Assembly (NCBI RefSeq): GCF_018343775.1
Contig: NZ_CP074349.1
Location: forward strand, 4,206,001 to 4,270,000
DNA: 64,000 nt
Source: Pseudomonas cichorii
GTDB taxonomy: Bacteria > Pseudomonadota > Gammaproteobacteria > Pseudomonadales > Pseudomonadaceae
Reading direction: 5' to 3'
Shown here: positions 27,177 through 31,007 of the stretch, in pieces
Position numbering within the stretch: the stretch's first letter is position 1
How the letters are laid out: each line of letters begins with the position of its first letter
Made by a program: the position numbers and the translations under genes
The notes under the pieces: generated by a model
What the model saw: the letters and a program-made list of their open reading frames with translations, nothing else
Told to the model about the DNA's origin: nothing
Database searches by the model: none

Positions 27177-27484
27177 TGCTGAATCTCCTTGAGAATTGCA
27201 TTGTTCAGTTCGTCGAACTCACTGTTGGCACGGCGTACGTAGACCCCCGTCAGAATGAACGCCGAGATGATCAGGCCGACCCCTATCGGCATGCCCCACG
27301 TAATGGTTGAAGTCGCACTGATCTTGGCTCCCAGAATATGAGGTCCATACGCAATCAAGAGAATGAATGCGGCATAGAGCCCGAGCATGATCGCCGAAAG
27401 AATCCAGGCGAACCGCTCTCTTTTGGAAACCAGCTCCTTGAAGCGCGGGCTGTTTTGAATCGAGAGGTAAATGCTGTCGTTCAT
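27173..27484 (-). CDS. DUF485 (YjcH-like) membrane protein
   Basis: A 103-residue protein with two membrane segments (about residues 28-48 and 62-85) and [20 protein letters not shown] near the N-terminus, the DUF485 hallmark. It is encoded just before actP with a 4-nt overlap, and the two are co-expressed across proteobacteria; it may help ActP assembly or activity, but this is not established. It is preceded by a 200-bp promoter region. Confidence 0.92.
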
Positions 27485-27636
27485 TGTTTTTGTCCTCGCA
27501 GCACAGATGAGTTGTCACGCCTTCAACTTTAGTCAGGTCCGGCACGTACTCCAGACGACCTTAGTATTAGAACGACATTAATCATTGAAGCACTTCAAGG
27601 GACTTTTGCAGGTTCACATCAAACCCTGATAAACAA

Positions 27637-27695: not shown

Positions 27696-28553
27696 TTATT
27701 TAGCGGTCCATGCGGCTACACGCTCAGGGTGCTTGGCCACCCACTCCTTCGCCGCGACATCAGGTTTGGCGCCATCCTGAATCGCCAGCATCACTTCACC
27801 GATTTCATCCTTGGATTCCCACTGGAATTTTTTCAGGAAGGCAACGACGTCAGGCGCTTTCTTCTCCAGGCTCAGGCTGGCAACGTTGTCGACGGTTTCA
27901 GCAGCGCCGTATACGCTTTTCGGGTCTTCAAGAAAACGCAGTTTCCACTTGGCAAACATCCAGTGCGGCACCCAGCCGGTGACCACGATGGACTCCTTGC
28001 GTTTCTCGGCACGGGTCAGCTCGGCAATCATCCCGGCTCCCGAACTGGCCTGCAGCTTGTAACCGTCAAGGCCGTAGTCCTTGATGGCCTGGTCGGTCTT
28101 GAGCATCACACCCGAGCCGGCATCGATCCCGGTGATCTTCTTCTTGAAGGAATCATCGGTCTTGAGGTCTTCGATGGTCTGGGCCTTGACGTACTCCGGC
28201 ACGATCAGGCCGATCTTGGCGTCCTTGAAGTTCGGGCCGTAGTTCACGACCTGATCCTTGTATTTGGTGTAGTACTCACCATGAGTGCCGGGCAACCAGG
28301 CCGACAGCATCATGTCCAGCTTGTCGGTGGCTACTGCCTGCCACATGATCCCGGCTGCAACGGATTGCAACTTGACGTCATAGCCCAGTTTTTCCTTGAG
28401 CACTTCGGCGGCTACGTGGGTCGTGGCGACACTGTCGGACCAGCCTTCGACGTAGCCGATGGTCAATGTCTTGGTTTCAGCAATGGCCAGCGTGGAGCTG
28501 GCGGCCAGTACCAGCGCGGCACCTGCCCCCAGAATTTTTCGCATATTCATCAT
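27696..28553 (-). CDS. glycine betaine/choline-type ABC substrate-binding protein (orphan)
   Basis: A 285-residue periplasmic protein of the OpuAC family. A signal peptide (MRKILGAGAALVLAASSTLA) ends near AIA-ETK. TIGYVEGWSDSVATTHVAAE and MLSAWLPGTHGEYY carry the aromatic residues that box quaternary ammonium ligands, and GWVPHWMFAKWKLRFLEDP the second set. Pseudomonas has several such orphan binding proteins (CbcX, CaiX, BetX types) that share one CbcWV transporter; no permease or ATPase gene is near, which fits. The start ATG (28553) follows GGGGAC; alternatives at 28550 and 28544 are in frame. The exact ligand is not known. Confidence 0.88.
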   Translation of the reverse strand: MMNMRKILGAGAALVLAASSTLAIAETKTLTIGYVEGWSDSVATTHVAAEVLKEKLGYDVKLQSVAAGIMWQAVATDKLDMMLSAWLPGTHGEYYTKYKDQVVNYGPNFKDAKIGLIVPEYVKAQTIEDLKTDDSFKKKITGIDAGSGVMLKTDQAIKDYGLDGYKLQASSGAGMIAELTRAEKRKESIVVTGWVPHWMFAKWKLRFLEDPKSVYGAAETVDNVASLSLEKKAPDVVAFLKKFQWESKDEIGEVMLAIQDGAKPDVAAKEWVAKHPERVAAWTAK

Positions 28554-28927
28554 CACGTCCCCGGAAGTTGCGCGCCGACGGATGTCGGGCTGCATTAACG
28601 TTGTTTTTCAGAGTCGCCCGTCATGCCCGGCTTTGGGGCAGACGGTGCCCTTCACGTTTCAGTCGTGCTCGCCCGCCATGACAGGCATCACATCAACTTC
28701 TCGATAATCAACCGGCCTGCAGATCGGACATGCTCTGTCAGCGACACGGAGGAACCGGGAAACGACATCACACAGCCATCAGCGACAATCCCCACGAAAA
28801 GCGTCGGCAAAGCCGTCTGGTTTTTGCATGAAACAAAACATGCGATCCCCCTCGCCCCCTTGCAGGGCCGGGAGTGCGGGATGGGCCTCTGCCCTGTTCT
28901 GGTTCACTCGGGGCCGGGAAACAGAAT

Positions 28928-28970
28928 GTGTTACCGCCTATGACCAGTTGCCACTCAAGACGGGTAACAC
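28928..28970 (+). promoter_or_regulatory. dyad upstream activating site, CbrB-type candidate
   Basis: A perfect 8-bp inverted repeat, GTGTTACC (28928-28935) and GGTAACAC (28963-28970), separated by 27 bp and ~110-150 bp upstream of the predicted start of the small RNA. TGTTAC/GTAACA half sites are those I recall for the response regulator CbrB. The spacing from the sigma-54 promoter suits an enhancer-binding protein. Confidence 0.6.
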
Positions 28971-29051
28971 GGAAACAATCGCATTACCTTTCGCCCTTGG
29001 TTTTTGCCGAAGTATTTTTCAAGCCGCTGTTTTTAAAGGACTTTTAAAAGT

Positions 29052-29067
29052 TGGCACAGCTTCTGCT
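29052..29067 (+). promoter_or_regulatory. sigma-54 (RpoN) promoter
   Basis: TGGCACAGCTTCTGCT: the GG of the -24 element and the GC of the -12 element are at the required distance (consensus TGGCAC-N5-TTGCW, one mismatch). Predicted start near 29078, at the beginning of the CrcZ-like RNA. Confidence 0.82.
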
Positions 29068-29077
29068 ATCTCTCTGG

Positions 29078-29475
29078 CACAACAAGAATAAAAACACGTA
29101 GCAAACCAACAAGAACAACACGAAACGGCTCTGACATAACAAGAACAACACGGACAGAGGCGCAGCTAACAGATTTTTTTGGAGTGGATAGGCTTTACAG
29201 GGACCTCTTGAACGAGAGGCCTCGCAACCGGACAGAGAACAATAAAACTACCTTCAGGTAGCTTCCCGTACCGGCTGGACCATGACGTTGTGCAGACCCA
29301 TGGTTAAAGTGAATCAGCGCTCAAAAAAATACGTTTGCTCTTGATCCCGGATGGGGATCACACAAGAACGCAGTAAAGGGACTGGTCGCCAAAAACAAGA
29401 ACAGACCGCCCTATAAAAATAAAAAGAGCAGGCAAGACACATTGAAGGAGAGCCCAGGCTCTCCTTTCGTGTTTT
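29078..29475 (+). ncRNA. CrcZ/CrcX-family small RNA
   Basis: The region has no coding gene but every mark of the Crc/Hfq-titrating RNAs of Pseudomonas: a sigma-54 promoter, a CbrB-like dyad upstream, a predicted length near 400 nt, six AAnAAnAA catabolite-activity motifs (29081, 29108, 29138, 29238, 29394 and 29415; four are AACAAGAA), and a strong terminator at 29445-29466. These RNAs bind Hfq and Crc when good carbon sources are lacking and lift catabolite repression. It is not between cbrB and pcnB, where crcZ lies, so it is more likely the second copy (CrcX in P. syringae, CrcY in P. putida). Ends are predicted, not measured. Confidence 0.82.
29445..29466 (+). terminator. terminator of the CrcZ-like RNA
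   Basis: A perfect 10-bp stem, AAGGAGAGCC / GGCTCTCCTT, with a 2-nt loop, followed by TCGTGTTTTT. Confidence 0.88.
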
Positions 29476-29492
29476 TGGCTTCTGGGCTTTCT

Positions 29493-29516
29493 AAGCTGCA
29501 AGCTGCAAGCTGCAAG
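29493..29516. repeat. tandem 7-bp repeat AAGCTGC
   Basis: Three head-to-tail copies of AAGCTGC followed by a partial one (29493-29516), in the spacer between the small RNA and the hydrolase gene. The same word occurs in the 21271-21330 hairpin and at 46245-46255. No function can be assigned. Confidence 0.6.
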
Positions 29517-29708: not shown

Positions 29709-31007
29709 ATGCTCCGTTTTCTGCGCTTCGCTACCGTTTTAGGTGGCTTATGTTTGAGTGCGTCCGCTCTGGCGACCAACATTGATCCCGCCACCTATGG
29801 TTATCCGCTGACTAACCCGTTTGAAGCGACCATTGCGACCACTCCACCGGACATGCGCCCTGAACTGCCTGACGATGAAGATATCGATCAGGACGTCTAC
29901 ACGCTCAATCTGCACCCGGAACGCGAATTCATCCTGCCGGACAATTTCTGGGCGGTAAAAAAGCTGAGCTATCGCCTGGCCAGGCAAGACCATGCAGCAC
30001 CTCTGATTTTCCTGATTGCCGGAACCGGCGCGCCTTATAACAGTACCCTCAATGAATTCCTGAAGAAGCTGTATTACGGCGCGGGTTATCACGTCGTGCA
30101 GTTGTCCTCGCCCACCAGCTACGACTTCATGAGTTCCGCTTCGCGTTTTGCCACGCCAGGGATCTCCACGGAGGATGCCGAAGACCTGTACCGGGTGATG
30201 CAAGCCATACGCGCCCAGCAGGCAGACTTGCCGGTGACCGAGTATTACCTGACCGGTTATAGCCTCGGCGCACTCAATGCGGCCTTCGTCAGCAAGCTGG
30301 ACGAAACCCGTCGCAGCTTCAACTTCAAGAAAGTCCTGCTGCTCAACCCGCCGGTCAACCTCTATACGTCCATCAGCAACCTGGACAAGCTGGTGCAGAC
30401 CAACGTCAAGGGCATCAACGACACCACCACGTTCTATGAACTGGTACTGGCCAAGCTGACCCGCTACTTCCGCCAGAGAGGCTACATCGACCTCAACGAT
30501 GCGTTGCTCTATGACTTTCAGCAGTCCAAGCAGCACCTGACCAATGAACAGATGGCGATGCTGATCGGCACCTCGTTCCGTTTTTCGTCGGCCGACATTG
30601 CGTTCACTTCCGACCTGATCAACCGTCGCGGCCTGATCACCCCGCCCAAGTTTCCGATTACCGAAGGCACCAGCCTGACGCCGTTCCTCAAACGCGCCAT
30701 GCAATGCGACTTCGACTGCTACCTGACAGAGCAAGTCATCCCCATGTGGCGTGCCCGCACCGATGGTGGCAGCCTGTTGCAACTCGTGGATCAGGTCAGC
30801 CTGTATGCACTCAAGGATTACCTGCACACCAGCACCAAGATCTCGGTCATGCATAACGCCGATGACGTGATTCTGGGCTCGGGTGACTTGGGCTTCCTGC
30901 GCAAGACCTTCGGTGATCGCCTGACCGTTTACCCATACGGTGGCCATTGCGGCAACATCAATTACCGCGTCAACAGTGACGCCATGCTGGAGTTCTTCCG
31001 TGGCTAA
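29709..31007 (+). CDS. secreted alpha/beta-hydrolase coupled to mlaA
   Basis: A 432-residue protein with a signal peptide (MLRFLRFATVLGGLCLSASA, cleavage near ALA-TNI). The fold is alpha/beta hydrolase: oxyanion-loop region IFLIAGTGAPYN at about residues 98-109, nucleophile elbow GYSLGAL at about 180, candidate acid in HNADD and histidine in YGGHCG near the C-terminus. It should be a periplasmic esterase, lipase or thioesterase-like enzyme of unknown substrate. Its stop lies 8 nt inside the mlaA gene, so the two are co-translated, which links it to outer-membrane lipid handling. Confidence 0.8.
   Translation: MLRFLRFATVLGGLCLSASALATNIDPATYGYPLTNPFEATIATTPPDMRPELPDDEDIDQDVYTLNLHPEREFILPDNFWAVKKLSYRLARQDHAAPLIFLIAGTGAPYNSTLNEFLKKLYYGAGYHVVQLSSPTSYDFMSSASRFATPGISTEDAEDLYRVMQAIRAQQADLPVTEYYLTGYSLGALNAAFVSKLDETRRSFNFKKVLLLNPPVNLYTSISNLDKLVQTNVKGINDTTTFYELVLAKLTRYFRQRGYIDLNDALLYDFQQSKQHLTNEQMAMLIGTSFRFSSADIAFTSDLINRRGLITPPKFPITEGTSLTPFLKRAMQCDFDCYLTEQVIPMWRARTDGGSLLQLVDQVSLYALKDYLHTSTKISVMHNADDVILGSGDLGFLRKTFGDRLTVYPYGGHCGNINYRVNSDAMLEFFRG

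Follow-up and report, generated by a model that had tools for sequence, protein, structure and literature searches.

A predicted CbrB- and sigma-54-controlled Hfq/Crc sponge RNA, very likely crcX, as the third CrcZ-family gene of a Pseudomonas cichorii/capsici-like genome

The intergenic region between a betaine-binding protein gene (betX) and a hydrolase-like gene in a P. cichorii/P. capsici-like genome carries a CrcZ-family small RNA gene that, by position and lineage, is very likely the orthologue of P. syringae crcX. We hold the overall account with high confidence: crcX would be the third CrcZ-family gene of this genome, a CbrB- and sigma-54-driven sponge for Hfq and Crc that most likely arose as a duplicate of crcY and lacks a read-through source. 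In the window, the whole 64-kb stretch of DNA that was analysed, the only Rfam match above cut-off was to RF01675 (CrcZ), at 29079-29500 on the plus strand. The match spans the full covariance model (1-398 of 398) and scores 298.3 bits against a curated cut-off of 95 bits. This was the search proposed with the original prediction of a CrcZ/CrcX-type RNA in the gap, and together with the conserved promoter and boxes and the covarying structure it bears that prediction out. The gap, put at about 1.15 kb, measures 1113 bp when the betaine-protein ORF is taken at its longest (start 28595) and the hydrolase from its ATG at 29709, or 1155 bp if the protein begins at its likely start, 28553. The hydrolase-like gene had no match in Pfam or NCBIfam (Table 1).

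Table 1. Features at and around the crcX locus (window coordinates)
Feature	Position	Strand	Basis or remark
Catabolite-activity motif AAAAACAA at yjcH-actP start	27484..27491	-	not part of crcX
Betaine/choline-type binding protein gene (betX)	27696-28595	-	Pfam OpuAC
CbrB-type box F (TGTTAC, forward), about -149	28927..28937	+	exact hexamer, at 28929
CbrB-type boxes R (GTAACA, about -114) and R' (GAAACA, about -106)	28961..28978	+	conserved block
IHF-like site, between boxes and promoter	29020..29032	-	1 mismatch to consensus
Sigma-54 (RpoN) promoter, TGGCAC-N5-CTGCT	29052..29067	+	1 mismatch; predicted start about 29078
crcX small RNA (predicted), about 400 nt	29078..29478	+	RF01675 match, fold z -3.88, conservation drop
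AAnAAnAA (Hfq/Crc-type) clusters 1-3	29081-29094, 29108-29118, 29138-29148	+	motif scan
Long-range helix closing central domain, 5' side	29168..29184	+	predicted to pair with 29318-29335
AAnAAnAA (Hfq/Crc-type) clusters 4-6	29238-29245, 29391-29401, 29415-29425	+	motif scan
26-nt core	29318..29343	+	invariant in 49 crcX copies
Intrinsic terminator, 10-bp hairpin and T run	29445..29476	+	arms 29445-29454/29457-29466, T run 29472-29476
Hydrolase-like gene	29709-31007	+	name from the original prediction

The genome, a single contig of 5.98 Mb, encodes three CrcZ-family copies. One, crcZ, is flanked by pcnB on one side and by the response-regulator gene of the cbrB site on the other; a second, crcY, lies directly 3' of mvaB and in the same direction; by synteny the window copy is at neither the cbrB-pcnB nor the mvaB position. 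Given the presence of both crcZ and crcY, the window copy is the third member of the family and not, as had been suggested, the second. Hfq and RpoN are also encoded, as is a Crc homologue that matches a PDB entry titled 'Catabolite repression control protein' at E 8.4e-159, its top match (1.6e-171) being titled Exodeoxyribonuclease III. The cbrAB site holds genes for a response regulator and a 984-aa sensor kinase, named CbrB and CbrA here by position, as all 25 NCBIfam matches listed for each fall below the curated cut-offs.

The promoter region was compared across distinct sequences only (49 crcX, 35 crcY, 34 or 35 crcZ and 3 unplaced copies; one crcZ row was left out of the promoter counts as its upstream sequence was too short). 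The sigma-54 site, TGGCACAGCTTCTGCT at 29052, has one mismatch to the consensus and the correct GG-N10-GC spacing, as originally read. Counting both strands, the window has 3 sites that differ from the consensus at no more than one position and 36 at no more than two, and a GG-N10-GC site with one or two mismatches is kept in 49/49 crcX copies. The start predicted from the site, at about 29078, agrees with the Rfam model start at 29079.

Upstream, the perfect 8-bp dyad of the original prediction is present where it was placed (GTGTTACC at 28928 and GGTAACAC at 28963), but it is better read as two CbrB subsites followed by a weaker third, which lies 8 bp beyond the second and near -106 in nearly all copies. 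Perfect 8-bp dyads are common, the window containing 136 with spacers of 0-40; this one stands out because its arms are kept across the 49 crcX copies, not because of its rarity. The first arm (28928-28935, in box F) does not vary and the second hardly does, whereas neither the spacer nor the sequence around the dyad is conserved. Exact TGTTAC and GTAACA hexamers start 34-36 bp apart in 45 of the 49 distinct crcX copies and 31 of the 35 crcY copies, and 19-21 bp apart in 33 of 34 for crcZ. The conserved TGTTAC/GTAACA subsites thus support, at the level of sequence, the proposed CbrB-like enhancer. In P. putida, the CbrB subsites are reported as F1, R1 and R2, with an extra R' at crcY, and the subsite sequence here is as published, the correspondence between those subsites and our boxes being general rather than base-by-base (PMC6296734). 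In three related crcX rows (G136, G176 and L073) both boxes are displaced together by about 10 bp, one helical turn, which fits helical phase mattering. Between boxes and promoter, the IHF-like site was scored against what we take to be the IHF consensus, WATCARNNNNTTR. Perfect matches to it within -100 to -26 occur in 29/49 crcX, 17/35 crcY and 2/35 crcZ copies, counts made without a shuffled control, and the best IHF-like sites are at -58 or -55 in 40 of the 49 crcX copies. Transcription of crcX would, on these elements, probably depend on both CbrB and RpoN.

The predicted RNA contains 12 overlapping AAnAAnAA sites in six clusters, the six motifs over about 340 nt noted originally, which run across 29081..29425. 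Dinucleotide shuffles gave means of 1.08 sites and 0.87 clusters, with 0/2000 as high. Of the 34 such sites on the plus strand of the window 12 are in this RNA, and its antisense strand has none. The predicted fold (-114.6 kcal/mol, z -3.88 against 100 shuffles) leaves 56 of the 66 motif-cluster bases unpaired, versus 183 of 401 for all bases. Across 122 distinct family rows RNAalifold predicted 84 pairs; for 18 of these, pairing is kept in at least 90% of rows and 3 or more rows show both-sided changes. Pairs of the long-range helix are kept in 120-122 of the 122 rows, with the exception of 29176-29327 (88/122). The first 18 bases of the 26-nt core are the 3' side of this helix, facing 29168-29184 with small bulges, so that the helix accounts for the first part of the invariant core. 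A candidate extra helix, 29336-29342/29424-29430, pairs in 98-121 of the 122 rows (29339-29427 in 118/118); no both-sided change was found in those rows, and one side is nearly invariant. The 10-bp terminator hairpin followed by its T run is as first described, its columns (29444-29467) being paired in 111-122 of the 122 rows with both-sided changes. Soon after the terminator, in unconserved sequence, three tandem AAGCTGC units occupy 29493-29513. As far as sequence can tell, the architecture is that of a Crc/Hfq-titrating RNA.

Over the 49 distinct crcX copies conservation peaks at 28927-28937, at 28961-28978, at the sigma-54 site and over the RNA, and collapses after about 29478. This pattern bears on two other readings of the locus. 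Since crcX duplicates a gene still present and has the lowest model score of the three copies (298 bits, versus 333 and 355), it might be a silent, non-functional crcY copy left from the duplication; we regard this as extremely improbable, as the boxes, promoter, motif clusters and paired columns are kept in the 49 copies while the flanks are not. Alternatively, the boxes and promoter could be real and the transcript mainly a leader that places the hydrolase gene under CbrB control, a reading that draws on the hydrolase being co-directional, with its ATG 232 bp past the terminator T run. It too is very unlikely: a conserved terminator with a covarying hairpin stands between the two, conservation collapses past that terminator, and 37 of 80 hydrolase loci (the best 80 of 538) keep the hydrolase with no crcX in the upstream sequence.

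How widely the third copy occurs was judged from several genome sets. In a survey of 57 genomes with stricter filters, the 36 genomes of the same genus, its own included, comprised 5 with three copies, 25 with two and 6 with one; CrcZ-family matches turned up in 4 of 21 genomes from other families, in one of them (G036) above cut-off. A further 26 genomes, chosen for strong or third copies so that their copy numbers are not rates, comprised 23 with three copies, 2 with two and one (G172) with four. In 22 of the 23 three-copy genomes there is one copy at each of the crcZ, crcY and crcX sites. The exception, G202, has a divergent crcY-like copy (L204) with neither mvaB nor ivd recognised alongside; it seems to have been relocated, or its neighbours may have been replaced. 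Two of the four copies in G172 are crcY-like and without a recognised neighbour (L216 and L218). In L216 no GG-N10-GC site was found, as GA stands in place of the GG, and this copy's own promoter may no longer work.

Among named genomes, crcX was found upstream of the hydrolase in 41 of the 80 loci examined (the best 80 of 538), always between the hydrolase and the binding-protein gene. The loci nearest to ours within those 80 are from P. capsici (99%) and P. cichorii (98%), and the crcX-bearing ones belong mostly to the P. syringae group and its relatives. Their titles include P. syringae, cichorii, capsici, viridiflava, asturiensis, floridensis, cerasi and congelans, and further ovata, maioricensis, graminis, petrae, bohemica, abietaniphila and UMAB-08. 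The other 39 loci are without crcX, absence here applying to these 80; for two of them (L071 and L117) the upstream sequence is too short for a decision, and the remaining 37 include protegens, chlororaphis, gingeri, jessenii, rhodesiae, salomonii and marginalis. Record titles are a poor guide to species, as L123 and L125, titled "P. viridiflava", are without crcX and L114, titled "P. putida", has it. In 27 of the 41 crcX loci the gap is 1.05-1.31 kb, like here; in the other 14 the binding-protein gene and hydrolase are about 3.1-3.4 kb apart, and the three of these whose ORFs were listed (L098, L111 and L040, the last from G022) have a co-directional ORF of 544-599 aa upstream of crcX.

As to the origin of crcX, the likeliest course is a duplication of crcY that predates the split of the P. 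syringae group and its near relatives. Within this genome crcX shares 78.5% identity with crcY and 60.8% with crcZ; between related species, crcZ is the least variable of the three. A 137-row tree places crcZ in a single clade (100/100) and every one of the 64 crcX rows within the crcY side, grouped with the crcY of crcX-bearing genomes (96/85). The window copy clusters there with the third copies of named species from the syringae complex (DC3000 was not identified among the genomes). One duplication of crcY would be the simplest reading, and a second copying of crcY, or gene conversion, is quite possible. In the latter scenario crcY was copied twice independently, giving a syringae-type and a UMAB-08-type crcX, or crcX was converted by crcY, in the same neighbourhood either way. 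The best 137-row tree unites 58 crcX rows and sets the other 6, from UMAB-08 and relatives, as sister to crcY rows; one change is forced and 4% of bootstrap trees unite all crcX, with long-branch warnings. A 96-row tree with 23 crcX rows has well-supported branches that force two changes, and 1% of its bootstraps unite crcX. However, crcX shares the same betX and hydrolase flanks throughout, and a single clade of all 64 rows costs 5.56 log-likelihood units and is not rejected (p-AU 0.34). We consider repeated copying or conversion a rather unlikely explanation, though one to be kept in mind beside the single duplication. In the accessible parts of the literature searched we found no statement of a crcY origin; the main crcX paper lies outside that literature and may contain one.

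In P. syringae, RpoN and CbrB are reported to act on crcZ and crcX (PMC8657755). CrcZ of relatives titrates Hfq, relieving repression (PMC4063720). By analogy, when carbon supply is poor CbrB would occupy boxes F, R and R' (near -149, -114 and -106) and drive the sigma-54 promoter of crcX, probably through looping assisted by IHF. The resulting RNA of about 400 nt would expose six A-rich clusters, spaced by conserved helices, to which Hfq (and Crc) would bind, freeing catabolic mRNAs from translational repression. Transcription, Hfq/Crc binding and physiology in this strain are predicted rather than observed. Read-through transcripts, cbrB-crcZ and mvaB-crcY, have been described in P. putida (PMC6292655). 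Here crcX diverges from its upstream neighbour; as that gene points away there is no evident read-through source, and judging from gene orientation crcX should be purely inducible. Lacking basal RNA from read-through, it would be an inducible addition to the sponge. More tentatively, and less likely than not, crcX may be a sub-functionalised crcY duplicate, a purely CbrB-switched addition without basal read-through. If so, the P. syringae lineage would have a steeper on/off switch of catabolite repression than pseudomonads with two sponges.

The adjacency of crcX and its neighbours is probably coincidence. The original prediction held the flanking betaine and acetate uptake genes to be plausibly catabolite-controlled, which is borne out in part, for the acetate permease. 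Motif AAAAACAA lies 7 bases before yjcH-actP, ending on the first base of the start codon, and was found in 74/74 loci with a readable start, whether crcX is present or absent; yjcH-actP is therefore a possible direct target of Hfq/Crc. Such a motif was found in 0/75 loci at betX and in 0/78 at the hydrolase. With the yjcH-actP motif independent of crcX and none at betX or the hydrolase, we rejected a cis link as the main idea. Nor do the CbrB boxes appear to serve the divergent betX, as the sole minus-strand GG-N10-GC site with at most 4 mismatches in 28400-28990 has 4.

A role of the core as an antisense seed was likewise considered and set aside. Besides all three crc genes, its 12-mer CGTTTGCTCTTG is present at 3 further positions in this genome, two of which (L230 and L231, at genome positions 1862426 and 1972567) are in the pairing sense near a gene start. 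These two are perfect complements, one just 5' of a short gene and the other early in another gene, presumably ccoQ-like and sugar-permease-like, respectively, as named by eye. Over 22 relatives, selected for carrying crcX, there were 95 matches, 65 of them in crc genes; the remaining 30 compare with 15 for the reversed control, a weak excess, and many are probably shared by descent.

For this plant-associated Pseudomonas lineage the analysis identifies the third Hfq/Crc sponge RNA and indicates where it likely came from. It also points to testable differences between the paralogues, in box spacing and the missing read-through source, and bears on why pseudomonads retain one, two or three sponge RNAs. 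CrcX itself is a known kind of RNA, previously described in P. syringae; that of P. syringae pv. tomato DC3000 is said, in papers citing the work, to have been described by Filiatrault in 2013. The DC3000 RNA belongs to the same family and has the same RpoN and CbrB promoter type, the difference being the P. cichorii/P. capsici-like host here; we infer that DC3000 crcX occupies the same site. That P. syringae has three such RNAs has already been stated (PMC6296734). CrcY of P. putida and relatives shares with crcX the 34-36 bp box spacing and the six motif clusters, but crcY lies co-directionally 3' of mvaB, where read-through is possible, whereas crcX here diverges from the gene upstream. CrcZ, at cbrB-pcnB, shares the full-length RF01675 match, the promoter type and the six motif clusters, and differs from crcX in its sequence, the more distant of the two paralogues here, and in its shorter box spacing.
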